From IMG/VR virus record IMGVR_UViG_3300020195_000047, positions 1-45,077 of that record: a stretch of 45,077 bases of DNA, one strand, 5' to 3'. How positions within the stretch are numbered: the first letter of the stretch is position 1; each line of letters opens with the position of its first letter. Of this stretch, positions 9,549 through 38,688 are shown piece by piece. A model generated the notes under the pieces. That model was given only the letters and a program-made list of their open reading frames with translations. It did not search any database and had not been told where the DNA came from. The position numbers and the translations under genes were made by a program. This stretch comes from a virus.

Positions 9549-9634
9549 ATCAGTTCTCCTGCGCGAGGCTCTGGCCCACCGTCGCGCCTAATCCCCCCAA
9601 GCAAGAGCGCCTAGGGGTCGCCAGACCATTTAAA
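9549..9634 (-). other. Structured 86-base gap between portal and scaffold genes
   Basis: On the minus strand the gap holds an inverted repeat TCTGGC/GCCAGA, an inner CCCC/GGGG pairing and two copies of TTAGGCGC/CTAGGCGC. The portal stop is followed at once by TTTAAAT (the motif described under the dispersed palindrome). It may be an mRNA structure that separates portal from scaffold/capsid expression. No T-tract is present. Confidence 0.35.
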
Positions 9635-11800
9635 CTACCCCTGCTCACCAACCGGGGGCTGCTGCTGCTGCGGAGGGCCGGGCATCTGCCCCTGCGTCTC
9701 GGGAGTCATTTTATTCAACTCAGCCTGCATAAACCCTTGGTCCTGGAGCTTCTGGTACAGCCAATAGACCGAGTCCTGCGGAAGCCGCAGACGCTTGGTC
9801 TTTGACGGATCTTCGTCAGAGGGAGACGGAATCCAGGCTCCAGCGTCGATGAGAGCGCCGGACGCAGGGATAAGCCCCGCATTGTCACGCAGCGTGCGCT
9901 GACGAAGCTCCTCAGCAAGCTCCAAACGCTCGCCCTTCTGCATCGAGTAGTTCTTCTGAATGTGGGGATGCAGGTTCGCGAAGTCGCTCTCGAGCATACG
10001 GAACGAGAGACGCGACACGATGTAGGTCTGCGGCTCCTCAGGGTTGACCTGAGGCATCTCTCCGCGATCCAAGGCCAGGATCAGGTTCTTGGCGATAGTC
10101 GAGTTCATCGTCAGATCAGAGAACGCATCCTTGGCGTCGGCATACGGCATATTCTTGATAATCATGCCGATGTCTTCGCGTGAGAGCTGCTGACCTGCGT
10201 ACTGCATGAGGTGGTTCATGGTGAGCTGCTTGCCCATCAGCGTCTCAACATCGTCCGACAGCGCCTCGATGTTGATCTCAACGTCCAGATCGCGTGTGTT
10301 CTTGAACTCGCTGATGTTGATGCGCTCCTTGCTGCCAACGGCCAACACAACCGTGTCTTCCGACAGGTAGAGCTTGGCCATCTTAAGATAGAGGCGGCAG
10401 GTGCGCTGAAGGAAGCCCTCAAACCGCTTGATGTGGCGCTTGAAGATCTTCTTCTGAGACGCCGACTTGAACAGCAGGGCGTAGGGCTCGATCTGCCCGT
10501 TGGGCGCAGCGGCCGAGTCCTCCTGCATCATGGCGACCTGGTACATCTCGGTGATCTGCGACTGCATGTACTCAAGGTACTGAGAGCCAGAGCGGCCAGC
10601 CAGGATCGTGGGAGCCTGGGCGCCCTGCACGTTCACACCGCGCACGCCAGGCACCTGTCCACCAGATGTCAGCTTGCTGCCGTTGAACATGATGAGCTTA
10701 TCGTCACCAAGGGTCATCTGATGCTCTGCGATCTTAGAGGCGCAGCGGTTGATCTCAATCTGATAGGGGCGAAGCTGCTTCACGATCCCACGACCACGGG
10801 CGCTGGTCTGGATGCGGTCGAAGACCTCCATCTCAAGCGGGAAAAGGCCACCAGGCAGAACGCCCTCGTCCAAAATGCCCGTCTCAGTCGTGATGAAGTA
10901 GTAACCCTCGGGGTACTCGTAGCTGGGACGGAAGTACCACTTACGAATCAGGCACTCGTTCTTGTCGGACTTGCGATACCCACCTTGGACGTTGTCAAAC
11001 ACGAGGAAAGTACGATCCGCCGTCTCGGTGATCATCTTCTCCTTATCCTCGCCAGAGAACATCTGCTTGAGCTGGGGCACGGGAACCATCTCACGGATGG
11101 CGTACCAGGGTGAGTGCTTCAGGTTCTTGCACTCAGGCGCACGGAAGGCGTTGAAGCCGTGAACCTCTTTAAACTTAATGGCGCCAGCGAAGACAGGCTT
11201 CAGCTTGTCAGGAACAGGCTTAGTCTCGTCATCCACCTCAACCTGCTGCATGACCATAGAGAGGGTCGCAGGGTCGAAGGTAGGCTGCTCCTGCATCATC
11301 TTCTCGAAGATGGGGGCCTCCGTCTCAGGATCTAGCGCCTGCTCGTAGCCAACGAGGGCACCGCCTTGAGGATCGAAGTAGCACTCCGTCCAGACCTCGC
11401 TGATACCCACGAAGTCGTCTGCCCAGGACGAAACCTGGTCATCGTAGTCGAGCTTCTTCTTGGCATCCTGCCAAACGGCGTTGCACAGCTCTGCCGACTT
11501 ACGATCTCCGCTCTCCGCCTCATTATGGGGAGCAGCCTTCACTCCAGGAGCGTAGGTCATGATGTTATTGACGTAGGTCTTGGTAATGCGGCCAATATGG
11601 TTCTTCGTCAGCCGGATTTTCACGTCCTGCGAGAGATCCTTTGAGGTGCGAACGCGGTCGTAGAAGCGGTCGTTGGCACGGGCGTAGTGTTCGCCCGCAA
11701 TCAACAGCAAGCTAGAGCGCATATCGGCAAAAGTCGCCTTATCTACGCCCTCAGCCTCCATTGCCCACTGATTCAAGGTCGTAATCGTGGGCTTACTCAC
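9635..11800 (-). CDS. Portal protein
   Basis: This 721-residue protein forms the dodecameric DNA channel at the capsid vertex. The size, the position between terminase and scaffold, and segments such as TKNHIGRITKTYVNNIMTYA and PYQIEINRCASKIAEHQ match large podovirus portals. A Gln/Pro-rich C-terminal tail follows a helical barrel-like region. The GTG start overlaps the upstream stop (GTGA). Prediction is from length, motifs and synteny. Confidence 0.85.
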   Translation of the reverse strand: MSKPTITTLNQWAMEAEGVDKATFADMRSSLLLIAGEHYARANDRFYDRVRTSKDLSQDVKIRLTKNHIGRITKTYVNNIMTYAPGVKAAPHNEAESGDRKSAELCNAVWQDAKKKLDYDDQVSSWADDFVGISEVWTECYFDPQGGALVGYEQALDPETEAPIFEKMMQEQPTFDPATLSMVMQQVEVDDETKPVPDKLKPVFAGAIKFKEVHGFNAFRAPECKNLKHSPWYAIREMVPVPQLKQMFSGEDKEKMITETADRTFLVFDNVQGGYRKSDKNECLIRKWYFRPSYEYPEGYYFITTETGILDEGVLPGGLFPLEMEVFDRIQTSARGRGIVKQLRPYQIEINRCASKIAEHQMTLGDDKLIMFNGSKLTSGGQVPGVRGVNVQGAQAPTILAGRSGSQYLEYMQSQITEMYQVAMMQEDSAAAPNGQIEPYALLFKSASQKKIFKRHIKRFEGFLQRTCRLYLKMAKLYLSEDTVVLAVGSKERINISEFKNTRDLDVEINIEALSDDVETLMGKQLTMNHLMQYAGQQLSREDIGMIIKNMPYADAKDAFSDLTMNSTIAKNLILALDRGEMPQVNPEEPQTYIVSRLSFRMLESDFANLHPHIQKNYSMQKGERLELAEELRQRTLRDNAGLIPASGALIDAGAWIPSPSDEDPSKTKRLRLPQDSVYWLYQKLQDQGFMQAELNKMTPETQGQMPGPPQQQQPPVGEQG

Positions 11801-11991
11801 TTCTGACCTTTCTGCTTAGCCTTGTCGTCCTTGATCCGCTCTGAGATGGGCTTGTCGAGCTTGCGCATCTCCCTATACAGGCGAGCCTCCGCACGCTTCT
11901 GCCGCTCCTTCTCCAGGAGTCCCCCCATGGACTTACCTACAGGCTTAAGCTTCACTGGTTGTCCCCATTTCGTGCGTCCCCACGCCCTCAC
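11797..11991 (-). CDS. Small basic hypothetical protein
   Basis: This frame encodes 64 residues from a GTG at 11991, or 52 from the GTG at 11955. It is very basic and helical (KERQKRAEARLYREMRKLDK). It overlaps the upstream gene by 47 bases with the longer start, so the shorter start is attractive. It lies between the tRNA-like region and portal. Its function is unknown. Confidence 0.5.
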   Translation of the reverse strand: MRAWGRTKWGQPVKLKPVGKSMGGLLEKERQKRAEARLYREMRKLDKPISERIKDDKAKQKGQK

Positions 11992-12247
11992 TGGCCAACA
12001 TTTGCTCGTAACGCAGCGGATCTGAGATCATCAGCTCCGCCATACGCTGTTCTTTGACGTTCTCGTCGTCCAAAGCGTCCACTTCTTGGTCCATATCGCC
12101 ATCTAGCGGCGCCGATAGGGCGACAATTGGGGTAGGAGCCACAAAGCTCACCTCAAAGTCACCAAGTTTAAACGATGTCACACCAGATCGGCCAGCCGCC
12201 TCAATAAGTGCGACCAGATCGGCCGTTTGCTTCGTTGCCATCAGCAT
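11945..12247 (-). CDS. Hypothetical protein between terminase/tRNA and portal
   Basis: This frame encodes 100 residues, or 98 from the ATG at 12241 (MATKQTADLVALIEAAG). The C-terminal half is acidic (DENVKEQRMAELM). No good ribosome site is seen, and the upstream 47 bases separate it from the tRNA-like gene. No family is recognised. Confidence 0.55.
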   Translation of the reverse strand: MLMATKQTADLVALIEAAGRSGVTSFKLGDFEVSFVAPTPIVALSAPLDGDMDQEVDALDDENVKEQRMAELMISDPLRYEQMLASEGVGTHEMGTTSEA

Positions 12248-12294
12248 CTATTATTGTCACAGAACCCGCCGAAACGGTAGTGGCGACGTTTAAA

Positions 12295-12371
12295 TGGCGC
12301 AGAAGATAGGATTCAAACCTATGACCTTCGGCAACTTACTCCCGACGCTCTAATCCCTGAGCTACCCCTGC
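12295..12371 (-). tRNA. tRNA-like gene with irregular anticodon arm
   Basis: This 77-base cloverleaf has a 7-bp acceptor stem (GCAGGGG/CTTCTGC with two G-U pairs), a D arm GCTC...GAGC, a T arm ATAGG-TTTGAAT-CCTAT, a 5-base variable loop and an encoded CCA. The anticodon arm is 18 bases instead of 17 (TCGG...CCGA around GAGTAAGTTG), so the loop is enlarged or a base is bulged. No normal U33-anticodon-R37 pattern results; UAA or AAG are the possible readings. The T loop also lacks the usual C56. Its first base is the last base of the terminase stop codon. It may be an aberrant, specialised or decayed tRNA. Confidence 0.65.
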
Positions 12372-13705
12372 TAATACTGACTGGACCAGTAGTATAGCTC
12401 ACTATCCACGTCGTCCCGCGCCTCAAGATCGTCGCTCTTGTCAACCGGCAGCCCCCTGCGGAGGTTGTTCTCATCCTCAGACGGGGTGGGCGTGGCTGGC
12501 TCCGCCTCCTCCGGCAGCGCCTTAGTGATGTACTCCATGTCCCACGGGATCTTGGTGGTGGCGTAGCGGCACGAGGCGTCGATCAAGTCATCCTTAGCCG
12601 ACTTCTTGTTGGTCGACTTGAGCAGCCCCTCCAACTCGCGTGCCAGCTTCTCCGTGTCGCCCGAGTTGTCGTATATCTTCAGCGCGTTGTTCTTAAACAG
12701 CGTATTGACGGTCGCCTCGCCAACCTCATGACTCTTCTCAGCCGGTGCGAACGGCAGACCAAGGCGCTGAGCAATCGTCCCTAGGTCCTTCGCCGCCCAA
12801 TCGAAGAAGGCGGTGATCATCGTCAGCCCATGCGTCATCTGGATGTACTTGCGAATCACATCATCGGCAGTCGTCAGCTCCCCATCACCCCGCCACGTCT
12901 TAACGATACGAGCGCGTCTGAAGTTAGGACAGACCGCCAAGATCCCAATGGCCGAGGGGTGAGAGGTCTTGCTCGTCTCATCTCCCCCGCCCCCGTAATC
13001 AACGCCCGCATAGTAGAGCCAACTCCTCGGCACGGGGTGCCCCTTGATGATGTGCTGGCTGCGCACGAAGGTGGGGTACTTGAGGCCACTGTCGACCACG
13101 AACCTGCCGTAGACCCGACGCTGAATCTCAGCCTCAGTAGAGAGACGACGCTTCATCCTCTCAATCTTGAACTCTGGCCATAGGCCAGCGCTGCCGTCCT
13201 CAAAGAACTGACAGTCGTACATACTGATCTGCATGATCTCTACGTCGTCTTCAAGCCACTGCGTCCGGTCCTCTACGATCTCGCGCCACTCCGGCTGCCC
13301 AAGCGTCGCCGTGAACACGAAACTCATGTAGCCATCCTGCGCCTCACACCGCAGAGCCAACTCAGGATAGAGGTGAAACGGCAGCTCTTCATCGCAATGA
13401 AGCAACGCCAAGCTCCCAGCCTGAAGGTTCGAGGCATCCTGCGAATACGTGCGGAACTCAAGCGTGAACCCGTTGTTGAACACAACAGCGGCGATCCGCC
13501 CGTTAGAATATTGCTCGGCCCAACCGTGCTGGGGGCTGCTCTTAAACTCCCCCTGTGGGAGCAAGGGCATCCACTTGTCCTCGAACTCCGCAGTTGAGGT
13601 CTTGCTATCCGGGTAGACAAACCCACCCCCGGGTGGGCTTGCCACCCCGTGAGTGCAGACCAGGCCACCTCTCGGCCCACCTGTCCGTGTCGGTGATAAA
13701 GTCAA
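12371..13705 (-). CDS. terL: Terminase large subunit, C-terminal frame (ATPase end plus nuclease)
   Basis: This frame carries the terminase from about base 13620 onward; the stretch from there up to 13705 is not terminase-like and is just the open part of the frame. Visible elements are VYPDSKTSTAEFEDKW, a Walker-B-like segment LLHCDEELPF, and the RNase H-like nuclease start YYAGVDYGGGGDE. It matches the frame at 13605-13913 if one base is skipped at TTT, 13619-13621: the joined protein then reads KPTRGWV-VYPDSKT, as in related terminases. Joined length is about 513 residues, normal for the family. The shift could be a real +1 frameshift, a mutation or a sequencing error beside a GC-rich hairpin. 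Confidence 0.85.
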   Translation of the reverse strand: MTLSPTRTGGPRGGLVCTHGVASPPGGGFVYPDSKTSTAEFEDKWMPLLPQGEFKSSPQHGWAEQYSNGRIAAVVFNNGFTLEFRTYSQDASNLQAGSLALLHCDEELPFHLYPELALRCEAQDGYMSFVFTATLGQPEWREIVEDRTQWLEDDVEIMQISMYDCQFFEDGSAGLWPEFKIERMKRRLSTEAEIQRRVYGRFVVDSGLKYPTFVRSQHIIKGHPVPRSWLYYAGVDYGGGGDETSKTSHPSAIGILAVCPNFRRARIVKTWRGDGELTTADDVIRKYIQMTHGLTMITAFFDWAAKDLGTIAQRLGLPFAPAEKSHEVGEATVNTLFKNNALKIYDNSGDTEKLARELEGLLKSTNKKSAKDDLIDASCRYATTKIPWDMEYITKALPEEAEPATPTPSEDENNLRRGLPVDKSDDLEARDDVDSELYYWSSQY

Positions 13706-15759: not shown

Positions 15760-16230
15760 TCAATAGCCCATGCCCAGACCCTCGCGCATCGATGCCCTAC
15801 GTTTCATAGTATCAGCGGTGCGCTCTGCAAACTCGCAAGGCTGAGGCAGTTCTTCAAGCATACCCTTGCGCAAGCCTAAGCGCGACATACGCACGCGTAG
15901 GCTAGCTTCCCTTGTGCCCAGCCAGTACGCGACAATGCCAATTTGCCAGCCAGCCAGCGTCAACATATTCACGAGTAGCAGGTACTCTTCATGACGTTTA
16001 AATGCTTCGCCGTCGTAGGATTTAATGCTCTGTGACGTAATCCTCGGGCGCTCTGCAATCTCGCGCAGAGCCTGGTTTAAACGAAGCTCTGCGTCATCCA
16101 GCTTTGCGGTGCGCTTACCAGCGGGCGCTTCCCAATCCGGGTATTCCTCTCTGTAGTCTTTTTCATATTGCTCTATGAGTTTCTCTGACATTTTGTCGTG
16201 GATTGCTTCTACTTCAAGAGGGGTTTTCAT
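15760..16230 (-). CDS. HTH protein, probable DNA-binding regulator
   Basis: This 156-residue protein has a helical N-terminus and, in the C-terminal third, a pattern typical of GcrA/Myb-like or sigma-4-like HTHs: GIVAYWLGTREASLRVRMSR followed by LGLRKGML. It is the first leftward gene at the divergent AT-rich region and may regulate early or late transcription. A small-terminase role is an alternative. GTTTAAAC occurs inside it at 16075 in a Leu-Asn reading frame. Confidence 0.6.
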   Translation of the reverse strand: MKTPLEVEAIHDKMSEKLIEQYEKDYREEYPDWEAPAGKRTAKLDDAELRLNQALREIAERPRITSQSIKSYDGEAFKRHEEYLLLVNMLTLAGWQIGIVAYWLGTREASLRVRMSRLGLRKGMLEELPQPCEFAERTADTMKRRASMREGLGMGY

Positions 16231-16556
16231 CGTATTAGAACTGCTAGGCTAATACTGCCTGTAAGACAAGCGGGAAATAGACAAAGCTGTTACAAAATCT
16301 TCAATGTATTACTAACGCACAGCAGCATTTATTACGCCTTGTTAATAGATTTGGTCTTACAAGCAGTCTTACAGTTGTCTCCTCTATCTTCTTATAATCA
16401 TTATCATTTATATAATTACATAATATAAAATCACATAACCAAAAGTACCTACTAGAAAACACCCAAAACCTAGGCCGGAAAACACCGGGGGAAAGTATTA
16501 CAAAATAGTTGTCAAATAACCCTTGACACCCCTTAGACCCTGTGCGACAAGAGCGC
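16231..16556. promoter_or_regulatory. AT-rich divergent control region, possible origin
   Basis: This 326-base region separates leftward and rightward genes and is much richer in A/T than the rest, especially 16381-16440. It contains three copies of GTCTTACA: inverted at 16260-16267, and direct at 16354-16361 and 16366-16373 (12-bp period). TTACAAAAT occurs twice (16290, 16498). These look like protein-binding sites. Frames open across it on either strand have protein-unlike composition and no ribosome sites. A replication origin or an early promoter/operator cluster would fit. Confidence 0.55.
16523..16551 (+). promoter_or_regulatory. Candidate early rightward promoter
   Basis: A perfect TTGACA at 16523-16528 is followed after 17 bases by GACAAG, a poor -10. 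It lies just before the first rightward early gene. The -10 may be read by a modified or phage-specific polymerase holoenzyme. Confidence 0.3.
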
Positions 16557-16781
16557 ATGACCAAAAAAGAGAAAAACACCGCCGCACTATTACAAGCCTA
16601 CGCAGGCAACCACGACGAGTTCATGATGCTCAAGGGCATCTTGTGCATGACGCACAGCATGGACTTCGTTGACTCCAACAAGGTCCGCGCCTTGCTGGAC
16701 ACGCAAGCTATTGCGCGTCGCTTGGATGCCTTGATCTTCGAAGACTTCGCCGCGACGGCAGCGGTGCGCAAATGCAGCTAG
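16557..16781 (+). CDS. Hypothetical early protein
   Basis: This 74-residue helical protein (MTKKEKNTAALLQAYAGNHD) is the first gene of the rightward early operon. The ATG at 16557 is preferred to a GTG at 16542. It overlaps the next gene by 10 bases. No family is recognised. Confidence 0.6.
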   Translation: MTKKEKNTAALLQAYAGNHDEFMMLKGILCMTHSMDFVDSNKVRALLDTQAIARRLDALIFEDFAATAAVRKCS

Positions 16782-17434
16782 TCACACTGGCCGAACAACA
16801 AGCCCAAGCTAGCGTCACGGCTAGCGAGGGCGGCGACACGACGACACTTAACCGTGAGGCTTGGCTTGAGCGCGCTATCGCGCTGCTGCGCCCTGACTTC
16901 GAGGACAACCAGACTCCTCTGCCAGTCCTCATCAAGGTGAGTGTCGGGTGGCCAGGAGGCAAGCGCTCAGCCAAGGCTATCGGTCAATATTGGCCGCCTG
17001 CGCTATCGACTAACGATATCCCTCAGATTTTCATTAGCCCTGTAATCGAGGACCCTGTACGCGCTCTGGACATCCTAGTTCACGAACTAGTTCACGCGGC
17101 GACGCCGGGAGATGGGCACGGTAAGGCATTTAAACGATGCGCTTTGGCTATGGGACTGGAGGGCAAGATGACGGCTACCGTCGCTGGACCTGGCCTAACG
17201 GCTAGGCTTACGCTACTGCGCACAGCGCTTGGAGAATATCCTCATGGCGCGCTGCGCGAGGGAGCGAGAGCGACGCCGAAACAAGGCACTAGGCTCCTCA
17301 AGGCTTGCTGCGATAGCTGCGGCTACACAGTGCGCGTCACTATGAAGTGGCTTGACCTTGGTGCGCCTCTTTGCCCTGTGCATATGTCGCCGATGAGTGT
17401 GACCTTGCCCGAGACGGAAGGCGAGGACGCATGA
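16772..17434 (+). CDS. SprT-like zinc metallopeptidase
   Basis: This is a 220-residue protein. Residues about 97-116 carry the metallopeptidase site: ILVHELVHAA with the HExxH-type motif, then GDGHGKAFKRC with the third metal ligand. The C-terminus is a zinc ribbon (ACCDSCGYTVRV and LCPVHMSP). This arrangement is that of SprT/Spartan-like proteins, which cleave proteins bound to DNA or act near transcription. Phage copies are common but of unknown target. It heads the early operon that also contains the ubiquitin-like cassette. The ATG overlaps the previous stop. Confidence 0.85.
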   Translation: MQLVTLAEQQAQASVTASEGGDTTTLNREAWLERAIALLRPDFEDNQTPLPVLIKVSVGWPGGKRSAKAIGQYWPPALSTNDIPQIFISPVIEDPVRALDILVHELVHAATPGDGHGKAFKRCALAMGLEGKMTATVAGPGLTARLTLLRTALGEYPHGALREGARATPKQGTRLLKACCDSCGYTVRVTMKWLDLGAPLCPVHMSPMSVTLPETEGEDA

Positions 17435-17487
17435 GACTGTTTAAACGCTACCAATGGCGCGAAGGCGCATGGGAGATTTCAGAATGA
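17431..17487 (+). CDS. 18-residue coupling peptide
   Basis: The frame MRLFKRYQWREGAWEISE starts with ATG overlapping the SprT-like stop and ends in TGA overlapping the next ATG (ATGA at both ends). Such exact coupling on both sides suggests it is translated. It contains a GTTTAAAC site at 17439. Confidence 0.45.
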   Translation: MRLFKRYQWREGAWEISE

Positions 17488-17732
17488 ACTATCAGCGCAC
17501 CTTCAAAATCATGCAAGCGCGTATCGACGCGCTTGACGCCGAGATTCGAGTCACGAAGGCGGCAATCGATCGCGGTGACTATGTGTATCTCGAATTTATG
17601 CAGAATCTTCTGCGCAGCGCAGAAACTCGTAGAACAGAAGTAGCGCACCTTCGGGAGGTATGCGCCGATCCTAGGCCGATAGGCCGTGTCTTGGCCATGC
17701 AATGGCTGTCAAAAGGGATGGAAGTCACATGA
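17484..17732 (+). CDS. Hypothetical coiled-coil early protein
   Basis: This 82-residue protein (MNYQRTFKIMQARIDALDAE) is largely helical. The start at 17484 overlaps the preceding stop and is preferred to an upstream in-frame ATG at 17454. Function unknown. Confidence 0.6.
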   Translation: MNYQRTFKIMQARIDALDAEIRVTKAAIDRGDYVYLEFMQNLLRSAETRRTEVAHLREVCADPRPIGRVLAMQWLSKGMEVT

Positions 17733-17884
17733 GCGACTTGGAAAGACTGGCAGCGCTGCGACGCTATGCCGCCCTGTTTAAACGTCTTGATGCTGAACCT
17801 GAACCCGATTCGGACCTTGACACTGCTAGATACTTAGACGCCTTGAAGGCGATTGAACAACGGGAGCAGCGCAATGCGGTATAG
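17729..17884 (+). CDS. Small helical early protein
   Basis: This 51-residue protein (MSDLERLAALRRYAALFKRL) is acidic in its second half. It is coupled by ATGA to the upstream gene and overlaps the next by 11 bases. Function unknown. Confidence 0.55.
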   Translation: MSDLERLAALRRYAALFKRLDAEPEPDSDLDTARYLDALKAIEQREQRNAV

Positions 17885-18203
17885 GCGGGTAGTACACATT
17901 AACGCCGAAGCGGGATCGGTAGGCGTCGCGCCTGTGGCTTGTCTTGGCGATATGCAGAAGCTTGTCGGTGGCTTGATCGAGTTAGTCACCGAGCTTCCGA
18001 ATGGCGATGAGGTATGGGCTAACGAGGAGGCGCTTCTCATTGATGGGCTGCGCAGCTTCACCTTGGACGTACCAGGCAGGCACGCGCTGAGGCTATATGG
18101 CAACGCTTACGTCATTGGACGCTGTTACGCCGATGCTGAGTCAACAGACGCGCTATCGACCTCTGAGAGCGTTAGGCAGGCGGTGCGCTTTGATGACGCG
18201 TGA
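17874..18203 (+). CDS. DUF3846-like hypothetical protein
   Basis: This 109-residue protein has the order of features seen in DUF3846 phage proteins: an N-terminal strand, LGDMQKLVGGLIELV, then LPNGDEVWANEEALL and GNAYVIGRCYAD near the C-terminus. The function of the family is not established. The ATG overlaps the upstream stop by 11 bases, a spacing that recurs in this operon (18193/18203, 18768/18778). Confidence 0.6.
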   Translation: MRYRRVVHINAEAGSVGVAPVACLGDMQKLVGGLIELVTELPNGDEVWANEEALLIDGLRSFTLDVPGRHALRLYGNAYVIGRCYADAESTDALSTSESVRQAVRFDDA

Positions 18204-18381
18204 CATGATGCTTGCTGAGCTTGTAGCGGATTTTGAGGCTTCACAGCCTACGCCACAAGCCAGGCAGGCGGCCTATTTGAAACTGATGCTGGATGGATTC
18301 GACGATGCGGCCTTGGCGATTCTGTGCCAGGGCTTGGACCCGACACGCGAGGAAATGGAGAAGAACGATGAGGCTGTTTAA
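18193..18381 (+). CDS. Small acidic early protein
   Basis: This 62-residue helical protein (LAELVADFEASQPTPQARQA) overlaps the previous gene by 11 bases. Its TAA stop is formed inside the GTTTAAAC palindrome at 18376. Function unknown. Confidence 0.55.
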   Translation: MTRDMMLAELVADFEASQPTPQARQAAYLKLMLDGFDDAALAILCQGLDPTREEMEKNDEAV

Positions 18382-18778
18382 ACTAACTGGATGCCTAGTA
18401 GGGCTTGCCGCTTGCGCGGTGACGACGCGAGACGCTAGCGGCACGCTTGACGAGCGTGACATTTTGGAGGCTAGGGAGCGCACGCGGGAGGAACTAAGCG
18501 AGCTTCGAGAGCTGCGACCTATGCCGACGCTGCCTGGCATCGAAGTCATCCACACAAGCGAGTGTGATAGTGACGAGTCATGCATGAATGAATATGTGCG
18601 GCTTGTACGCGCTACGCGCCGACTTGGTGAGTGCAGCTTCGAGAGGTCGATGCTGATCTACGCGCTGCAATTCGATGCCAGGCGTTTGATTGCGCTGCCT
18701 GAGGCTGCGTTTCTCGGCGACTGCGTAAGCAGACACGAGCGTTTAAACCGTATCGACGCGGCTGCGCGTGGGCTGTGA
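18368..18778 (+). CDS. Early lipoprotein
   Basis: This is a 136-residue protein. MRLFKLTGCLVGLAACAVTT has a basic start, a short hydrophobic core and a lipobox (LAAC, Cys16). The mature part is acidic and helical, with several Cys residues. Lipoproteins expressed early by phages can block receptors or superinfection, as T5 Llp does. That is a guess here from position and signal only. The start at 18368 is fixed by the signal sequence; the 14-base overlap with the upstream gene is consistent. Confidence 0.6.
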   Translation: MRLFKLTGCLVGLAACAVTTRDASGTLDERDILEARERTREELSELRELRPMPTLPGIEVIHTSECDSDESCMNEYVRLVRATRRLGECSFERSMLIYALQFDARRLIALPEAAFLGDCVSRHERLNRIDAAARGL

Positions 18779-19088: not shown

Positions 19089-19113
19089 CAAGCGGTGCTT
19101 GAGCCGCTAGACA
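19085..19113 (+). promoter_or_regulatory. Promoter of the ubiquitin-like cassette
   Basis: TTGACA (19085-19090) and TAGACA (19108-19113) are 17 bases apart. The spacer holds AGCGG/CCGCT, a short hairpin. The first bases TTGACAAGCGGTGC resemble TTGACAGGCGGGGC at 22406, suggesting a shared promoter class. Confidence 0.45.
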
Positions 19114-19128
19114 TATGTTTGTAAGATT

Positions 19129-19154
19129 CTCCCCTGCGGTATACGTTTGGGGAG
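19129..19154 (+). promoter_or_regulatory. Leader hairpin upstream of the ubiquitin-like gene
   Basis: CTCCCC and GGGGAG form a perfect 6-bp stem around a loop containing GTATAC, in the 5' leader 22 bases before the ATG. It could protect the mRNA or regulate translation. No T-tract follows, so it is not a terminator in this direction. Confidence 0.4.
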
Positions 19155-19382: not shown

Positions 19383-19393
19383 TTGTCCTTTAA

Positions 19394-30307: not shown

Positions 30308-32902
30308 ATGGACTACATCTTGAACCCCGGCGACCGGGACTACCAACTGGAAGCAGTTGCCGCAGTTTGGGCTAAGATCAAAAAAGCCGACAACGCTCTT
30401 GTCGTCCTGCTGATGGGCACAGGCAAGTGCCTCGGCAAAGACACGCCGATCCTTATGTATGACGGGACAACGAAGCTTGTACAAAATGTTGAGGTCGGGG
30501 ACAGGCTTATGGGTCCAGACTCATTGCCTCGAACCGTCCTGAGCCTATCCAGAGGAAGGGAAGAGATGTTCCGAGTAACTCCCATTAAGGGGGATTCTTG
30601 GACGTGTAACAAGTCTCACATCTTAAGCCTCAAAAGAACTCCTAGGGTTAAAGGCCATACACACGACTTAGAAAATGTATCCGTTGGAGACTTCTTAACA
30701 AAAGCAAGAACCATCCAGAAGCAGTACAAGCTCTGGGCTCCCGAGGGCATTGAGTTCAACGAGGACTCAAGCCTTGGTGATGACCCATATTTTTTAGGTT
30801 TATGGCTAGGAGATGGACAGTACAGAGATCCCATCATCTGCAAAAATGTTCCAGTCTTGACGGCGTGGCTCTCTGCCTACGCAGAATCCAAGGGGCTGTC
30901 GCTCAAGGAATACAAGTCGACCGGGCAATCGTCGTTTGCCTTGAGTGGAAACAGAGGGGACAAAAAAGGATGCAATCCTCTCAGGTCCATCATTTCAGAG
31001 GCAAAAATAAACAATGAGAAACGCATCCCGCATAGGTTTTTAACCTCCTCAACGCGGGACCGAATGAACCTGTTGGCCGGGCTCATTGATACGGACGGGT
31101 GCCTGACTAATGGGACTTACGAGATCGCAACAAAATACATTGGCCTTAGTGACGACATCCTACATTTAGCAAGGGGGCTGGGATTTGCCGCCACTCGAAG
31201 GGTTAAATGGGTTCGTCTTGAGGGGTGGGATAAAGCGAGGCCATACCAGCGGATATTCATAAGTGGGGATATCTCCACTGTCCCCGTCCTACAAGAGAAG
31301 CGGAAAGCTGCGATGAGGAGGCAGGTTAAAAACCACAGAATTCGCGGGTTCTCTTTAGAGTCTTTGGGCGAAGGGGATTACTACGGGGTTGAAATAGATG
31401 GAGACAGGCTTTTCCTGCTTGGAGACTTCACAGTCACTCACAACAGCCGCATCGCCTCCATGCTGATGATGCAGTCTTGGCGTGCAAAGCCAGATGTCAG
31501 AATCGACTTCGTTGTGAACCGTGTTGAGCTTCTGGGTCAGACGGTCCGGGTGCTTAGCGAGTTCTTCACCGACGATCAGCTAGGCACGTATACTGGCAAG
31601 AAGAAGCAGCTTGGGCGCATGATTACCGTGGGCACCATCCAAAGCCTGCATCGAGTAGAGCGAGAGCCACCGCACCTCATCATCCTGGACGAGGTTCATA
31701 ATGTCTCCGACTTGCCCGAGTCTGCCTACCGCAAGTACGTTGCGTCGAGCTATGAGCGCAACCCGAAGCTCAAGGTTGTCGGACTAACGGCAACCCCCTA
31801 CCGCTCCAACGGGTACATCTACGGAGAGAAGACCTCGATGTTCGACAGCGTGACCTACGGGCGCGACCTCAAGTGGGCGCTTGAGAAGGGCATCCTTGTC
31901 ATCCCTCGCATGAAGCGAGTCGAGGAACAGTTCGACGCCTCAGACATTAAGATTGTTGCTGGCGACTATGACCAGGTCGGGCTTGAGCGACTGACCAACG
32001 ACTTGGAGAAGGTGCGAGCCCAAGTGGCAGATGCCTTGCCTCGTTTAAACGGACGCAAGAAAATCGTTTGGGCCTGCACAGGCATCAAGCACAGCGAACT
32101 GTTGGCGGCGGTCTTGCGTGAGAACGGCGAAGACGCTGTGGCTTATCACTCGAAACTAGAAAGCCGCGATCCAGTGATGGACCACTGGAAGACAAAGGGG
32201 CGTCACCTGACGTTCATCTCGATCATCAAAGAGGGCTTCGACTTCCCGCCCATCGACTCTGTGTGCCTATGCTGCCCGACACGCTCTCCTGTGAAGTACC
32301 TCCAGATCGTGGGTCGTGGACTCCGCACGCATCCAGACAAGGTCGATTGTCTTGTTTTAGATTACGGGAAAGTTATTGAAAGCTGTGGCCCACTAGATAA
32401 GCCGTTCATTCGCAAGAAGGGCGAGAAGAACCCCAAAGAAAGCCTGATGAAGTTCTGCCCGCAGTGCTTGGAGTACATGGAGAAAACAATCCACCAGTGC
32501 CCGGCCTGTGGTTACGTACCACCTCCACCCGCCGAGCGTGACGGGACCAAGGCGCTCGACACCAGGCACCGCTCAGGGGCGATATTGTCAGGAGAGGTTG
32601 AGCCGCCGCCCTCGTCGTGGATTCCGATCCGCAGCGTAGTCATTGCGGAGCATAAGGCCAAGTCGGGCCGTATCTGCACCAAGATCACCTACCTGCCTGC
32701 CAACGCGCTAACCAAGCCCGTGGTTGAGTATTGCCCTTGGGGCACGCCGAAGGTGGACAACATCGCGAGGCATCGCCTAGCTCGTGTTGGCGTCAACGCT
32801 AAGAAAATGTCCGACATAAAAAACCAAGTGCCAATGGTCCCCACCCACATCAAGGTTGTGTGGGAGGAATACCCGAGAATTGAGGAGATGAAATATGAAT
32901 GA
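30308..32902 (+). CDS. DEAH-type helicase interrupted by an intein
   Basis: The frame has 864 codons; after removal of a 339-residue intein the helicase is 525 residues. The exteins restore Walker A as LMGTGK-SRIASML. Further motifs are LIILDEVHN (DEVH box), VVGLTATPYR and QIVGRGLRT (motif VI), so this is a superfamily 2 helicase. A C-terminal zinc ribbon (FCPQC and CPACGY) is unusual. It probably unwinds DNA during replication or recombination. GAAAGGAACCC precedes the ATG. Confidence 0.9.
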   Translation: MDYILNPGDRDYQLEAVAAVWAKIKKADNALVVLLMGTGKCLGKDTPILMYDGTTKLVQNVEVGDRLMGPDSLPRTVLSLSRGREEMFRVTPIKGDSWTCNKSHILSLKRTPRVKGHTHDLENVSVGDFLTKARTIQKQYKLWAPEGIEFNEDSSLGDDPYFLGLWLGDGQYRDPIICKNVPVLTAWLSAYAESKGLSLKEYKSTGQSSFALSGNRGDKKGCNPLRSIISEAKINNEKRIPHRFLTSSTRDRMNLLAGLIDTDGCLTNGTYEIATKYIGLSDDILHLARGLGFAATRRVKWVRLEGWDKARPYQRIFISGDISTVPVLQEKRKAAMRRQVKNHRIRGFSLESLGEGDYYGVEIDGDRLFLLGDFTVTHNSRIASMLMMQSWRAKPDVRIDFVVNRVELLGQTVRVLSEFFTDDQLGTYTGKKKQLGRMITVGTIQSLHRVEREPPHLIILDEVHNVSDLPESAYRKYVASSYERNPKLKVVGLTATPYRSNGYIYGEKTSMFDSVTYGRDLKWALEKGILVIPRMKRVEEQFDASDIKIVAGDYDQVGLERLTNDLEKVRAQVADALPRLNGRKKIVWACTGIKHSELLAAVLRENGEDAVAYHSKLESRDPVMDHWKTKGRHLTFISIIKEGFDFPPIDSVCLCCPTRSPVKYLQIVGRGLRTHPDKVDCLVLDYGKVIESCGPLDKPFIRKKGEKNPKESLMKFCPQCLEYMEKTIHQCPACGYVPPPPAERDGTKALDTRHRSGAILSGEVEPPPSSWIPIRSVVIAEHKAKSGRICTKITYLPANALTKPVVEYCPWGTPKVDNIARHRLARVGVNAKKMSDIKNQVPMVPTHIKVVWEEYPRIEEMKYE
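30428..31444 (+). other. Intein with LAGLIDADG homing endonuclease
   Basis: The intein starts with Cys (CLGKDTPILMYDG) after Gly-Lys of the P-loop and ends FTVTHN before the first extein Ser. Cys1, the terminal His-Asn and +1 Ser are all present, so splicing should work. The endonuclease motifs are FLGLWLGDG and LAGLIDTDG. Insertion between Lys and Ser of Walker A makes splicing essential for helicase activity. Confidence 0.93.
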
Positions 32903-33107: not shown

Positions 33108-33414
33108 GAACGAGATTCTCGACTACCTGAACCAGCGCGGGGACTGCTTGGCCTTTAAGGTCAACACGATGGGAGTCTTCGATATCACCACTGGTCGGCA
33201 TCGCTCCAAATCTAAGTACGACCTCAACGGTCAGGCGGACATAACGGCAGCGTTTAAAGGTGGCATCGTGATCTTCTTTGAGGTTAAAAAACCAGGCGGT
33301 CGTCAGTCCCCAGCGCAGAAAGCGTTTGAGGACAGGCTCAAGAAACTAGGCAATCGGTATTTTGTCGTCGTAACGGTCGATGACGTAAGAAAGGCAATCA
33401 ATGAATCCCTTTGA
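33064..33414 (+). CDS. VRR-NUC nuclease
   Basis: This is a 116-residue protein. GQADITAAFKGGIVIFFEVK followed by KPGGRQSPAQKAF is the catalytic D...EVK core of the VRR-NUC (PD-(D/E)XK) family, and YFVVVTVDDVRKAI is its usual last strand. Phage copies probably cleave branched DNA during replication or packaging. The start could be ATG 33064 or GTG 33085, since the upstream gene overlaps. Confidence 0.85.
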   Translation: MLSLPKTVKLEKEYENEILDYLNQRGDCLAFKVNTMGVFDITTGRHRSKSKYDLNGQADITAAFKGGIVIFFEVKKPGGRQSPAQKAFEDRLKKLGNRYFVVVTVDDVRKAINESL

Positions 33415-34342
33415 AGAAAACAGCATTAAAACCCAAGGCAGCGCCGCATGGCTGGAGGATCGGAAGCTGGGGATCGGCGGCAGTGAAATCGCCATCGTCC
33501 TTGGCCTCTCGCCATACAAAACCCCCTATCAGCTCTGGCTTGAAAAGACTGGGCTCATCGAGCCGGAGGACATCAGCAGTCTTCCGCACGTCATGCGCGG
33601 AACGCTGGCTGAGCCTGTGGCCCGGAAGAAGCTTGAGGACAGTCTTGGGTTCAAACTCGCGCCGATGGTCTATGACCAGCGTGGGGACGTTCGTTTCTCC
33701 TCCGATGGAACCAACCAGCAAAAGGGCGTTTTTATCGAAATCAAGGCCATGGGATTGGACGCCCATCTCGCCGCCGGAGAGGGTGGGAGCCAGAACGTCC
33801 CCGCGCACTATATGCCACAGGTTGTCTGGGGCTTTGGCGCTGACCAACTTATGACTACGTGTTACTTCGTGTCCGTTCGCCCGGAGGACGGCCACAAGTG
33901 CCACGTCATCACGATTGAACGCACGCCAGAAATCGACAGCACGTTCAAGGATTACCGCACCAAAGCCATGGAGTTCATGACCATGGTGCGCACCAAGACC
34001 CCGCCTCCGCTCACCAGCAGGGACTGCGTGGCGATAGAGAACAACCAGGTGTTTGAGGCAGACGTTGAGCTGTGGCAGCGGGCCAAGATGCATATGGCTG
34101 AGGCCGAGGCGGCTCTTGAACACGCCGAAACCCTGCTCAAGGCGTGGGTGGATGATGAGGCTGCTGGCTCCGTCGAGGGCTACGGCGTTAAGATCACCCG
34201 CGTACAGCGCCAGGGCACCGTTTCTTGGAGTAAAATTCCTCAGGTCAAAGCTCTGCCGCCTGAGGTCATCGAGCCCTACCGTGGGGCTCCTAGTGTGTCA
34301 GTGCGGATCACCGCTAAGAAAGAAGGAAAAGAAAATGGATAA
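33401..34342 (+). CDS. YqaJ/lambda-exonuclease-like recombinase
   Basis: This is a 313-residue protein. KLGIGGSEIAIVLGLSPYKT and PYQLWLEKTG are the family's N-terminal motif; MRGTLAEPVARKK, FSSDGTNQQKGVFIEIKAMG (metal-binding Asp, Glu and Lys) and PAHYMPQVVWG follow in order. It should be a 5'-3' double-strand exonuclease feeding the annealing proteins upstream. It overlaps the VRR-NUC gene by 14 bases. Confidence 0.88.
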   Translation: MNPFEENSIKTQGSAAWLEDRKLGIGGSEIAIVLGLSPYKTPYQLWLEKTGLIEPEDISSLPHVMRGTLAEPVARKKLEDSLGFKLAPMVYDQRGDVRFSSDGTNQQKGVFIEIKAMGLDAHLAAGEGGSQNVPAHYMPQVVWGFGADQLMTTCYFVSVRPEDGHKCHVITIERTPEIDSTFKDYRTKAMEFMTMVRTKTPPPLTSRDCVAIENNQVFEADVELWQRAKMHMAEAEAALEHAETLLKAWVDDEAAGSVEGYGVKITRVQRQGTVSWSKIPQVKALPPEVIEPYRGAPSVSVRITAKKEGKENG

Positions 34343-34800: not shown

Positions 34801-35015
34801 TACGAGTCGTCCTCGTCCATTTCGGCGGCCATGTCCTTTAAGTCTTGGAGCGATTGGACGGCCCTGTACTTCTTGGCGAGCTTCTTTTGGACGCGCTCCA
34901 TGAGGACTTTGTTGCCCTTGATTTCTTCGGCACGGATAAGTGCGTCTACGGCGCTGTCTGCTTCGTAGTCTGTGTCTTTGTCGTCTGATTTAGGCTTTTC
35001 GGGTTGGGACTTCAT
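34800..35015 (-). CDS. Small acidic hypothetical protein
   Basis: This 71-residue, highly charged helical protein (LQDLKDMAAEMDEDDS) has AAAGGAAG before the ATG and overlaps the upstream stop by 4 bases. Function unknown. Confidence 0.6.
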   Translation of the reverse strand: MKSQPEKPKSDDKDTDYEADSAVDALIRAEEIKGNKVLMERVQKKLAKKYRAVQSLQDLKDMAAEMDEDDS

Positions 35016-36979
35016 TTTATTACTTCCTTTTCTTTTTCACGGTTTTGCATGGCGCTCCAAGCTGAGGTGACACCGCCAGGGCTGAGGAATTTGCGGCTGA
35101 GAAATTTCCCAAAGGCGTCAGTTGCGTTAGCCGCCTTGGCGCCTTGCTTCAGCATAGCCGGAGAGGACAGGCTGCTACCAGCCGCGCCAGCGGCCAAGAT
35201 GAGCGGCCAGTTGGGGGTGTTGCCGCCCGTGACCTGGTCAAGGCCAGCAGCCGCGCCGCCAGCAGCCGCGCCCACGACAAGGCCACCGGCAAGGCGGCCA
35301 GGGCTAGACGGCAGGAACGAGGTGTAATCCTTGCCGAACCGAGAATACACATCGGCGATGTCGAAGCCCTTTTTGGCCTGCGTCTTCCAAACATTATCGA
35401 CTTCTTGGATCTGCTTTTGGCTGTAAGGCCCGCGAGCAGCATCGGCGAACGTCTTGAACGGGTTGGGGTCAAACTCCTTGGGGTCAGGCATGACCTTGTC
35501 GAGCTTTTCTAAGTCCTGCACCCGCTTGGCCCACAGCTCACGCGCATTCTTAAGGGCGGGAACTTGCCCCTCAAGCGCAGCGTCGATATTTTGGATCGTC
35601 TTCGCTGCGGAGGCCTTTAAACGCTTTTCAAAGGCGGTTGAGGTCGCGGTGGACTTATTTTTAAAAAGATTGAACTCGCCTTTGAGGGGGTCTTTGAGCG
35701 ACGCAGCCCCCTTGAGGGAGACGCGGTCACTGGTCCCAACCAGGGCCTTAACGGACTCACGCGCCTTAATCGCAGCCTTAATGGCCTCTTCAGAGCCACT
35801 TTCAAGGGCCTCGTTTTTAAGCTCATCAAGCGTGTCGTAAAGCGGTTGCACCAGCGGCTTGCGGGCAAGCGCCCCCGCTTGGTCGCCAAGAGGAACGTCT
35901 TTGTCGGCCGTTCTGAGAAGCCGAAGCGTCTCCTTGTACTGAGCCTTTGCCCCTTTGCGGGCGGCCTTGCCTTTCGTCAGCTCCTTGGTAACGATGTCCT
36001 CGTTGGCGTAGGTGCGCAGGTCAGTCAGGTAGTCGCCGAACTCCAGGCCAGCACGGGCGGCCTCGTCACGGTCAAGGTATTGGAGAAGCACCTCTGGTCC
36101 AGCGTAGGCTTCTTTCGACTTCTGCTTGATGGTGTTTTTTGTGCCTCCGATTACCTTGTCAAGAAACTCAGTTTCGCCTTTGAAGCCTCCGGCGTCTAAT
36201 TCCTTCACTTCGCCCATGTATTTACGGAGGTTCTGAAGCGTCACCTTGGGGATGCCAGAAACTTTTCCAGCGAGCCAAGGGAAGGCGTTTTCCGTGACTT
36301 GGTCGTAGGTACGCCCGATGGCGCCACGTCCAGAGCGGGCCAAGTCTTCGGCCACTTTGCCGTACTTGGCAGCAGCAGCGTTTAAACTCTTTTTGTTGGC
36401 CCCGACACCAAACATAATGGGGGCAGCACCACCAATGGCGGCAGACATGCCGATCTCGGACGGACTGAAGTTCTTGGGTCCAAGCCCGAGGCCTGCGCCT
36501 AAGAGCTGACGAGCAGCCTCAGATCCACCGCCAATAGCTGCGCCAATCCCCATAGCCGGACCCATCGCGACAGGCAGTTTGCCGATCACGCCGAGGGCTC
36601 CTTCGGCCAGAGTGGGGATCAGGTCAGGAGCAAATTCAAGAACATCCTTAGGCCAATCGGCCGCCCCAGAAGGGTCCAAGACCTTGCGGGGAGCGTTTGC
36701 TCGTACTTCTTCGGGAGAACGAATCCACATCTCGCCGTCTTCGTTCTCGGTGATCTCATGATTTGGGAGCTGTTCACGCAGATACTCGATACCGCGACCG
36801 TTAGCGCCGAAGCCTTTAATCAGCGCCCGACGAGCCGTACCAACGTCGGGATGTTGCTCGTTGAGAGCTTGCTTCGTGCTGCCGCCATCAAGCGCATCAA
36901 GTGCGCCGTCGGACAGCTTCGAGTAATCGCCAGACTCAAGCGCATCTAAGTCGGCGTCTGAGAGTTTTGTGAGATCCAT
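35012..36979 (-). CDS. Internal virion (ejection) protein
   Basis: This is a 655-residue protein. It has an acidic start (LTKLSDADLDALESGDYSKL), hydrophobic Gly/Ala-rich segments that could insert in membranes (MGIGAAIGGGSEAARQLLGA and GGLVVGAAAGGAAAG), and long charged helices. Large proteins of this kind next to tail-hub genes in podoviruses are usually ejected with the DNA to form a channel across the envelope. The call rests on composition and position. Confidence 0.6.
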   Translation of the reverse strand: MDLTKLSDADLDALESGDYSKLSDGALDALDGGSTKQALNEQHPDVGTARRALIKGFGANGRGIEYLREQLPNHEITENEDGEMWIRSPEEVRANAPRKVLDPSGAADWPKDVLEFAPDLIPTLAEGALGVIGKLPVAMGPAMGIGAAIGGGSEAARQLLGAGLGLGPKNFSPSEIGMSAAIGGAAPIMFGVGANKKSLNAAAAKYGKVAEDLARSGRGAIGRTYDQVTENAFPWLAGKVSGIPKVTLQNLRKYMGEVKELDAGGFKGETEFLDKVIGGTKNTIKQKSKEAYAGPEVLLQYLDRDEAARAGLEFGDYLTDLRTYANEDIVTKELTKGKAARKGAKAQYKETLRLLRTADKDVPLGDQAGALARKPLVQPLYDTLDELKNEALESGSEEAIKAAIKARESVKALVGTSDRVSLKGAASLKDPLKGEFNLFKNKSTATSTAFEKRLKASAAKTIQNIDAALEGQVPALKNARELWAKRVQDLEKLDKVMPDPKEFDPNPFKTFADAARGPYSQKQIQEVDNVWKTQAKKGFDIADVYSRFGKDYTSFLPSSPGRLAGGLVVGAAAGGAAAGLDQVTGGNTPNWPLILAAGAAGSSLSSPAMLKQGAKAANATDAFGKFLSRKFLSPGGVTSAWSAMQNREKEKEVIK

Positions 36980-38688
36980 TAGCCAAGCTCCTGGAGCAGC
37001 TTCATCAGGCCCGGCTTGAGCCGCTCATACGGCGTGCCTTGGATCTCTTGTGCTTGCCGATCCTTAGACTCCAGCAAGTGTCTGTCAGGCATGTTAAAGC
37101 GATTGCGCTGCGCAATCGCGAATGCCTGCATCAACTCTGGGTCTTGCATCCAACCTGGCCCCATGATCCGATCTGCGTTGTCAAACGAATGGGCAAGGGC
37201 GGCTTTTTTGTAGGCCATAATCCCCTCCGGCGTCTGGATGTCGAACTGAGAGATAAGGTCCATCGGCCAAGTAAAGATTTCATCCATCACGGACGCAGGT
37301 CCACGACTAGGCCCGTCCAGTGTTTGCGTTTCCTTGTCGGCGTCAAAGCTTTGATCCATAGGAGGGACCACAAACTCATCGACGGATTCACGACGAGGCA
37401 GGAACATCTCAGGCTCGGGCTCTTGACGCCAACCGCTAGGGTATTCCTTGAATCCCTCTTCGGCGCGTGAGAACCCTCCAGGTGCGGGCTCAGCGCGGTA
37501 GCCGTTCTCAAGCGTCGCTCCGAGAGGTGTCTCGTCCGGTTGCTCGCCAACAGACTGAGGGGTGCGCCCCTGGCGGCGGGCTTTCTCAGCCCGAACGGCG
37601 TTCATGTCGATGCCTCCAGGTTGAGTCGACGGGACTCCGCCTTCGACAGAGAAGACGGAGTGCTTGCTCGTAGGAGCGCCTGGGCCAAAGGTGCGCTCGT
37701 ACTCTGCTGCCTCTTCGGGCTGGGCTGTTTCGCGGTTGCGAAGCCTGCCTTTAACCGTGGCGCGGAAGCGGCTCATCACAAGCCTAAGGGCGTCCGGGCT
37801 CTGGCCAGCAGCCGTCCCCATTTGTTCAGCCCAGGCCAGTTGCTCGTTTGCAGTGAGCGTAGCGCCGAACTGATTGTTACGCAGGACGCCCACAAGGCCT
37901 TCAACGGCCTGCTTGTTGCGGTTCGCCTCCCCGCCGTCCTTACTCAACGAGTGCATGAGAGGGCGCTGCCAAGTGTCCGGCAGGTTGAACTTATCTTTAA
38001 ACGGGTTCAACTGAAGAGACTGGTCGAAGCCAGGGATAGGCGTTTTGTTCTTGGAATCAAAGATCGTGGGGATCGCCTTTTGGATGGCCGCTAAGTTATC
38101 AATGGAGAGCTGCGCCTCGTCTTTCTCGATGCGGTCGCCATAGCCCTTCATGTCGAGCTTCTTCCCACTGCCCCCCCCACGGCCCTCACGAGGGAGCTGC
38201 TTCTGAGCTTCCTGCATGGACTCGCCAATGGTTGTCTTCTTTTGGTTCATGCCCATCTTCATGGCGTTGATAATCGTGTTGGCGCGGGTAGCTTCAGAGT
38301 CCCCGACCATGTCCTGCATGGCTCCAAGGCGCCCGAAGACGGAGCCAGCGGATTCCGGGGCCTCGTAGCCAATGTCGCGGCCCAGGATGCCCTTAGTGAA
38401 GCCAGCGAGGGGACTCAGGTCCGTTTGGACGCCTTGAGCCCGAGTGGAGCTAATGAGGTCGCGAAGCTTGTCAGAGCTGATGGCCTGTTCATTGACTCCG
38501 GGGACGCTTTCGCCCATGCCGACCAATGATTTAAACGCTTCGGGAGACAGGGGCTCAGTCGTCTCATTGACAGTAATGCTGTCGTAACCGCGCAAGGGGA
38601 TAGTGCCTGGCGCACCGACACCAAAGGGGGGGGCCTGCGCTGGCTTGCGCCCACCATTGAAAATATGCAGCAGGTCTTTGAATTCCAT
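36979..38688 (-). CDS. Internal virion or tail-associated protein
   Basis: This is a 569-residue protein, polar, rich in Pro, Glu and Arg in the C-terminal half and helical before that. No enzyme motif is visible. It is coupled to both neighbours (TAATG downstream). By position it is a second ejection-type protein. Confidence 0.55.
   Translation of the reverse strand: MEFKDLLHIFNGGRKPAQAPPFGVGAPGTIPLRGYDSITVNETTEPLSPEAFKSLVGMGESVPGVNEQAISSDKLRDLISSTRAQGVQTDLSPLAGFTKGILGRDIGYEAPESAGSVFGRLGAMQDMVGDSEATRANTIINAMKMGMNQKKTTIGESMQEAQKQLPREGRGGGSGKKLDMKGYGDRIEKDEAQLSIDNLAAIQKAIPTIFDSKNKTPIPGFDQSLQLNPFKDKFNLPDTWQRPLMHSLSKDGGEANRNKQAVEGLVGVLRNNQFGATLTANEQLAWAEQMGTAAGQSPDALRLVMSRFRATVKGRLRNRETAQPEEAAEYERTFGPGAPTSKHSVFSVEGGVPSTQPGGIDMNAVRAEKARRQGRTPQSVGEQPDETPLGATLENGYRAEPAPGGFSRAEEGFKEYPSGWRQEPEPEMFLPRRESVDEFVVPPMDQSFDADKETQTLDGPSRGPASVMDEIFTWPMDLISQFDIQTPEGIMAYKKAALAHSFDNADRIMGPGWMQDPELMQAFAIAQRNRFNMPDRHLLESKDRQAQEIQGTPYERLKPGLMKLLQELG

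Follow-up and report, generated by a model that had tools for sequence, protein, structure and literature searches.

What keeps one exact eight-base word in place at position after position of a phage genome, often inside genes? The word is GTTTAAAC, a palindrome with 14 exact copies in the 45,077 bases of a linear virus record from IMG/VR (IMGVR_UViG_3300020195_000047; hereafter the window, meaning that whole stretch). Dinucleotide shuffles of the window gave a mean of 0.43 copies (standard deviation, 0.71; largest count, 4), and a third-order Markov model predicted 1.03, so the excess described by an earlier note on this DNA holds (14 copies vs about 0.4 to 1 expected). As shown below, the word accompanies the gene for a phage SprT-like zinc metalloprotease, which is probably the protein that binds it.

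The earlier note had named a codon-aware shuffle as the test that could refute the excess. We ran it in two forms on the called coding sequences (CDSs), where 13 copies were counted at 12 distinct sites because the copy at 24558 falls in two overlapping candidate open reading frames (ORFs). Against these 13 copies, a synonymous shuffle that kept the codon-junction dinucleotides (500 runs) gave 0.40 copies (standard deviation, 0.64; maximum, 4), and a within-gene synonymous shuffle gave 1.23 (standard deviation, 1.05; maximum, 5). Codon bias was therefore rejected as the cause of the excess. The two coding frames that the note had reported were both found, with 7 of the 13 CDS copies reading Phe-Lys and 6 reading Leu-Asn. 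Its statement that copies run across stop codons has little support: no CDS copy spans one, and the 2 of the 14 sites that lie outside called CDSs (17439, just past the SprT stop, and 23281) are intergenic. The sites and their recorded ATTTAAAC variants are as follows; because GTTTAAAC is a palindrome, no orientation can be read for its sites.

12166-12173, GTTTAAAC site 1, within the minus-strand gene at 11945-12247
16075-16082, GTTTAAAC site 2, within the minus-strand gene at 15760-16230
17439-17446, GTTTAAAC site 3, intergenic, after the SprT stop and ahead of the following start codon
17776-17783, GTTTAAAC site 4
18376-18383, GTTTAAAC site 5
18741-18748, GTTTAAAC site 6
19027-19034, GTTTAAAC site 7
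19754-19761, GTTTAAAC site 8
20438-20445, GTTTAAAC site 9
21472-21479, GTTTAAAC site 10
23281-23288, GTTTAAAC site 11, intergenic, with the next start 128 nucleotides (nt) downstream
24558-24565, GTTTAAAC site 12
32043-32050, GTTTAAAC site 13, within the helicase gene; the relative G010 reads GTTTAATC there, a one-base loss
36380-36387, GTTTAAAC site 14, within the minus-strand gene at 35012-36979; kept in G010
9628-9635, plus strand, ATTTAAAC variant where the portal gene ends, 81 nt ahead of the next minus-strand gene; kept in the relative G001
12288-12295, minus strand, ATTTAAAC variant (the plus strand reads GTTTAAAT), intergenic, 42 nt upstream of the minus-strand gene at 11945-12247; kept in G001
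17128-17135, plus strand, ATTTAAAC variant within SprT, over F-K-R codons; related phages have GTTTAAAC there
25887-25927, plus strand, two ATTTAAAC variants (at 25887 and 25920), 30 to 70 nt upstream of the gene at 25955-26548

Eleven of the 14 copies lie at 16075 to 24558, in the early plus-strand region, as the earlier note had said; their gaps measure 0.29 to 1.8 kb rather than the 0.3 to 1.5 kb that it gave. Conservation in close relatives of the window is uninformative for this region, which the related contigs do not cover. The enriched core is wider than the octamer, namely, TTTAAAC, whose sites cluster in the same region (16.1 to 24.6 kb). The hexamer TTTAAA occurs 41 times vs 8.0 expected, mostly as GTTTAAAC and ATTTAAAC; CGTTTAAA and TTTAAACG together occur 28 times vs 2.6 expected, and ATTTAAAC occurs 12 times vs 1.5 expected.

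The same word recurs in other phages. Contigs retrieved with the SprT gene had as a leading 8-mer either GTTTAAAC or GTTTACAC, which differs from it by one base, and most of another 77 IMG/VR loci did so too. The octamer ranked first to third among all 8-mers in the majority of deep SprT lineages. Copies numbered 18 of GTTTACAC in Arthrobacter phage VroomVroom (0.7 expected), 27 in Powerpuff (0.9 expected), 14 in Microbacterium phage Percival (0.3 expected), 13 in phage 4A, 18 in the 25.9 kb of Streptomyces phage Intolerant, and 19 and 23 in the loci L008 and L009. Genome G008 favours ATTTAAAC (10 vs 0.5 expected). In relatives, the octamer tends to be preceded by Y and followed by R. A separate word, CCCTGACC, with words overlapping it, was seen beside the GTTTAAAC signal in L037 (14 to 15 copies in 20.5 kb vs 0.2 to 0.4 expected).

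We found that the site follows SprT, and specifically an intact SprT C-terminus. All loci of at least 7 kb were pooled, and GTTTAMAC (M, A or C) was counted by the state of that C-terminus. Where it was intact, 690 copies were found vs 35.7 expected, with 73 of 87 loci individually significant, although many of these loci are closely related and the tree suggests roughly fifteen deep SprT lineages by our count, so that 87 loci overstate their independence. Nine loci with a degenerate C-terminus held 2 copies vs 1.5 expected, and 71 loci without SprT held 8 vs 19.0 expected. An independent draw of 80 loci, chosen by DNA polymerase I, gave the same association: all 6 SprT-carrying records had 4 to 9 copies, including L120 (8 copies), whose SprT gene lies in the same record but outside the stretch first examined. 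The 74 other loci had 0 or 1 copy except L117, with 3 copies in a 5.8-kb fragment in which SprT was not found.

Of the ORF families, SprT alone occurred in the window, in VroomVroom, Percival, and L009, and in the GTTTAAAC loci. When 54 window proteins were searched against four complete actinophage genomes (VroomVroom, Percival, Powerpuff, and 4A), SprT was found in all four; the remaining matches were one short, weak one each in VroomVroom and Powerpuff, and none was common to the four, with the proviso that shared proteins of very small size or strong divergence would escape BLAST. Sigma-like "DNA binding proteins" that adjoin SprT in actinophages were considered as the binder and set aside, as they have no homologue in the window. 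Host cannot account for the difference in sites, since Percival (14 copies) and the phages Eden and AvGardian (0 copies; degenerate SprT C-terminus) are all recorded on Microbacterium foliorum. Finally, the tree places L118, which has GTTTAAAC, as sister to L119 within a GTTTACAC clade, and five changes of L118's own match the GTTTAAAC class, three of them (residues 178, 183, and 190) in the C-terminal domain. The link between site and SprT, strong but correlative, is very probably real, and SprT itself is probably the binder. Among the options that the earlier note had listed, a binding site fits GTTTAAAC best.

The protein and its candidate recognition module map as follows.

16772-17434, plus strand, SprT-like zinc metalloprotease of 220 residues and candidate site binder (phrog_6361, E = 5e-40; HELVH at residues 104-108)
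17264-17386, plus strand, C-terminal zinc-ribbon-like domain of SprT, the proposed DNA-recognition module (residues about 165-205; TR..K..C-x2-C..Y..R; C180, C183, C201, H204)

The Pfam SprT-like family (PF10263) matched the window protein at an E value of 0.0054 and 17 bits, below the curated cut-off of 25.6, and matched 28 of 31 family members at E ≤ 0.05 (best, 2e-7). H104, E105, H108, and H116, corresponding to HExxH and a further histidine, are invariant across the 31 aligned members. An AlphaFold model of the window protein (predicted local distance difference test score, 86) had as its top structural matches human SPRTN (6mdw and 6mdx; Z = 8.6 and 8.4 over 95 to 99 residues), the 6mdw match spanning residues 25 to 137; IrrE was among the weaker matches (Z = 3.9). 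Foldseek alone returned no match to the model at E ≤ 0.001, and a sequence search of solved structures gave no meaningful match. The model predicts a SprT/SPRTN fold for the window protein. The C-terminal piece alone gave weak zinc-ribbon matches (MCM and desulforedoxin; Z about 3). Site-bearing members keep TR..K..C-x2-C..Y..R..KW and CPxH (window residues about 170 to 204), with the second Cys replaced by Ser in 13 GTTTACAC-class proteins. TR and more were lost in Eden, AvGardian, Epa5, MW2, and the group of L214 to L216 and L221. Pseudomonas phage Epa5 (L033) has an abundant word of its own, CCCTGGGC, at 46 copies in 44 kb vs 7.3 expected.

The placement of the sites provides further clues to their function. 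VroomVroom and Powerpuff, both Arthrobacter phages, are 76% identical where they align, and 7 of 8 aligned VroomVroom sites are identical in Powerpuff, compared with 17% of 8-mers overall (P = 3e-5); in the reverse direction, 6 of 10 Powerpuff sites are identical in VroomVroom (P = 0.003), whereas too few sites aligned for comparisons with Percival. Together with the rejected codon-aware nulls, this conservation upholds the earlier suggestion that selection acts on the DNA itself. Sequence outside CDSs makes up 8 to 12% of the genomes compared (9% for VroomVroom and Powerpuff), yet sites not wholly within CDSs number 11 of 18 in VroomVroom and 13 of 27 in Powerpuff (P = 1e-7 each), 4 of 14 in Percival (P = 0.025), and 7 of 18 in Intolerant (P = 0.004). 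In VroomVroom and Powerpuff, these sites lie mostly 23 to 53 nt upstream of start codons, and a −10-like TAnnnT hexamer immediately precedes the site in 4 of 15 and 5 of 20 cases, respectively. By inspection of sequence, promoters of VroomVroom, L104, and Powerpuff read TTGCGC-spacer-TAGACT-GTTTACAC, and in promoters of Percival and L100 the site is located in the spacer. In 12 to 13 GTTTACAC-class loci, a site lies 27 to 108 nt upstream of the conserved start region of SprT (RExW codons). Relative to transcription, one orientation was taken by 15 of 18 sites in VroomVroom, 20 of 27 in Powerpuff, 8 of 14 in Percival, and 7 of 18 in Intolerant, and orientation was mixed in G024 and G025.

A site array that covers promoters, continues through genes, and is conserved with one protein resembles operator/stoperator systems, and we therefore propose SprT as a repressor. 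The family-wide recognition site would be YGTTTAMACR, with GTTTAAAC as the version of the window, and the small zinc-ribbon-like domain at the C-terminus of SprT would read it. By occupying core promoters and many positions along genes, SprT would lower phage transcription, the sites acting as operators and stoperator-like elements. Its effect in the window would be to restrain the early region, which holds 11 of the 14 sites; in temperate relatives, it may be the immunity repressor that has yet to be found, and its protease domain could remove SprT itself or another bound protein, so that repression is lifted. We infer the physical binding, the repression, and the role of the protease from these patterns. 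That the sites serve a repressor or stoperator function stands at even odds, and we judge the whole explanation, in which SprT binds through its C-terminus and silences transcription, to be just as likely right as wrong.

Several observations weigh against SprT as a stoperator-like repressor. Most window sites are within genes, 39 to 71% of sites in annotated phages are fully inside CDSs (operator and stoperator sites are intergenic or at gene ends), and other phages have many genic sites, which occur in both orientations. No site was found in the SprT promoter region of the window, which has an HTH_3 protein of its own (28794-29096). When seven actinophage-type sequences were pooled, exact GTTTACAC copies numbered 127 whereas no one-base variant exceeded 6, which makes the site stricter than would be expected of operators; G024 and G025 have about 35 sites each, genome-wide and in both orientations, more than operators need. 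As for the link itself, the roughly 60 closest GTTTAAAC loci are one clade and hence non-independent. G007 (L011) has an intact C-terminus without enrichment of the site, and Enterobacter phage Arya, whose SprT has an intact C-terminus, encodes a CI-like repressor separately and has just 4 copies of the site. Residues 178 (C or A vs V) and 190 (A or S vs T) split most members, but there are exceptions, for residue 178 including L108, L113, L114, and the G008 protein. A single specificity residue was accordingly rejected, as neither position separates all members, and the two are a lead only.

The main rival keeps SprT as the binder but has it serve DNA maintenance or counter-defence, with the sites as loading platforms for clearing DNA-bound or crosslinked proteins. 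This fits the protease fold, which is nearest to human SPRTN, a DNA-protein-crosslink protease, as well as the exactness of the site, which lacks intermediates, and its whole-genome spread, more even than random in Powerpuff (P = 0.0008), Percival (P = 0.0034), and G025 (P < 0.0002). The sites of the window and G008 are, however, clustered rather than even, and the strong excess just 5′ of start codons and over core promoters, like the site in the leader of SprT itself, points to regulation; we consider this rival unlikely. Another possibility is that a different factor, from the host or a small or strongly diverged phage protein, binds the site and that SprT is its companion, for example a protease that cleaves the binder. 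Phage metalloproteases that act on repressors are known (the ImmA/IrrE type), IrrE is among the weaker structural matches noted above, and BLAST could overlook such a partner. Yet the window shares no other protein with all four complete actinophages, phages without SprT lack the site, loss of the site tracks degeneration of the C-terminus of SprT itself, and the change of motif in L118 coincides with changes in that domain, all of which make a separate binder quite doubtful.

The remaining explanations do without SprT. The exact 8-bp specificity, the even spacing in some genomes, and the DNA methyltransferase encoded by Powerpuff would suit a site recognized by a methyltransferase or nuclease of the phage, or else a signal for packaging, replication, or recombination. 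The gene listings of VroomVroom and Percival include no methyltransferase, however, nor is any such enzyme shared with the window; methylation by itself would give no advantage to additional copies, and the sites are associated with promoters, so that we regard this as improbable. The earlier note had also suggested a host-matched iterated palindrome like cyanobacterial HIP1, or a marker of recent host origin, and a short word that is palindromic in the window and found within genes would be consistent with the former. In the 4.8-Mb genome of Pseudarthrobacter siccitolerans, 65 copies of GTTTACAC fall mostly in clusters the size of a prophage: 20 lie at C25:130-168 kb, 18 at C28:50-79 kb, and another 7 where C29 begins. 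SprT genes were found at 125.9 kb of C25 and 50.1 kb of C28. Of the 43 sites in Arthrobacter EPSL27, 18 fall in 30 kb beside SprT (C1:168-198 kb). In both genomes, the clusters have about 1 site per 2 kb and the rest of the genome is without enrichment. In the actinobacterial hosts tested, the array thus belongs to prophages rather than hosts. This prophage-only enrichment in two actinobacterial genomes led us to reject both HIP1-like and host origins; phages without SprT lack the motif, and Eden and AvGardian lack it on the very host of Percival, which also argues against a host marker. The site resembles HIP1 as an over-represented octamer palindrome within and between genes, but it is confined to SprT phages and prophages rather than enriched in the tested host genomes. 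With the codon-aware nulls rejected as well, a HIP1-like palindrome or a compositional or codon artefact is scarcely credible. As a separate observation, P. siccitolerans has two or three prophage-sized GTTTACAC clusters (C25, C28, and C29) and only the two SprT genes that were found.

How would a SprT repressor compare with known systems? With the SprT/SPRTN family, the window protein shares the HExxH active site, the predicted fold, and a C-terminal zinc-ribbon-like segment, but it differs in the statistical association of its C-terminal domain with one DNA word; SPRTN is not known to recognize DNA in a sequence-specific way. ImmA/ImmR-type pairs similarly tie a metalloprotease of a phage or mobile element to lysogeny control, as proposed here, although their protease cleaves a separate helix-turn-helix (HTH) repressor and we found no separate shared repressor. 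The closest parallels are Cluster A mycobacteriophages (L5, Bxb1, and TipsytheTRex) and Streptomyces phage R4, in which dozens of short sites are spread over a temperate genome (PMC6550527, PMC9283540, PMC10276819). Some of their sites lie in promoters and others along genes, and the site variant is lineage specific; an orientation bias with transcription is seen in several of the actinophages here, but not in all. The 10 to 40 copies typical of Cluster A are matched by the window (14), VroomVroom (18), Powerpuff (27), Percival (14), and 4A (13), and promoter sites of that type were recognized by sequence inspection in VroomVroom, Powerpuff, and L104. Differences include an exact 8-mer (10 with flanks) instead of a 13- to 14-bp asymmetric site, far more genic sites, a SprT-like zinc protease as candidate binder instead of a repressor with HTH and Stoperator domains, and a spread across actinobacterial and other phages. 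Thus, while the system would work like stoperators, we do not file it as a member, because the sites do not lie mainly between genes and the candidate binder belongs to a different family. Strongly iterated 8-mers of other kinds occur in phages without SprT but with the same DNA polymerase family (L121 to L131, L135, L145, L158, and L185), namely, AGTAGGTG/CTACTCAC at 11 to 19 copies, AGTCGGTG at 20, ATTTGGTA at 15, and CGTTCCTA at 29; these are perhaps further undescribed stoperator-like systems.

Other genes in the window are as follows.

9635-11800, minus strand, portal
12371-13705, minus strand, terminase
26633-28789, minus strand, primase
28794-29096, minus strand, HTH_3 protein
29078-29830, plus strand, Sak4-like protein
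30308-32902, plus strand, helicase
33401-34342, plus strand, RecE-like exonuclease

The early region encodes SprT together with JAB-like and ThiF-like proteins. The stretch 19482-22099, in the densest part of the array, includes a JAB-like gene (20494-21354, under the Pfam cut-off) that adjoins a ThiF/E1-like gene (21278-22099) for which the PRTRC_ThiF match was weak, and the pair is possibly a phage ubiquitin-like conjugation cassette, judging from sequence. The helicase has an intein-like insert, apparently at its Walker A motif (GTGK, then CLGKDTPILMYDG); a close relative, L015, spans helicase residues 1 to 864 in about 1,575 nt and may represent an allele that lacks the insert. The record has at its left end (19-699) the C-terminal part of TnpB, the RNA-guided endonuclease of IS200/IS605. 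Megablast for relatives of the genome and a search with one structural protein returned no phage match.

A full-text literature search, with most subscription papers and preprints outside its coverage, found neither GTTTAAAC nor GTTTACAC described as a motif of phages, and no account of a repressor function for SprT. Powerpuff, of Cluster AZ, is temperate and homoimmune, and those who described it found no repressor in Clusters AZ and EH (PMC8758107). We tentatively suggest, at somewhat less than even odds, that a SprT/SPRTN-type zinc protease is a sequence-specific DNA-binding repressor that recognizes an exact octamer, at dozens of places in the genome, through its C-terminal zinc ribbon and is the missing immunity repressor of these clusters and of many uncultured phages. 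A gene that is widespread in phages and bears only the annotation "SprT-like protease" thereby gains a concrete DNA target, and phages of Clusters AZ and EH gain a candidate for the repressor that they must have (PMC8758107). If the proposal is true, it would constitute a protease-based form of stoperator control, immunity groups would be readable from sequence (GTTTAAAC vs GTTTACAC), and a strong k-mer signal in many uncultured viruses would be explained.

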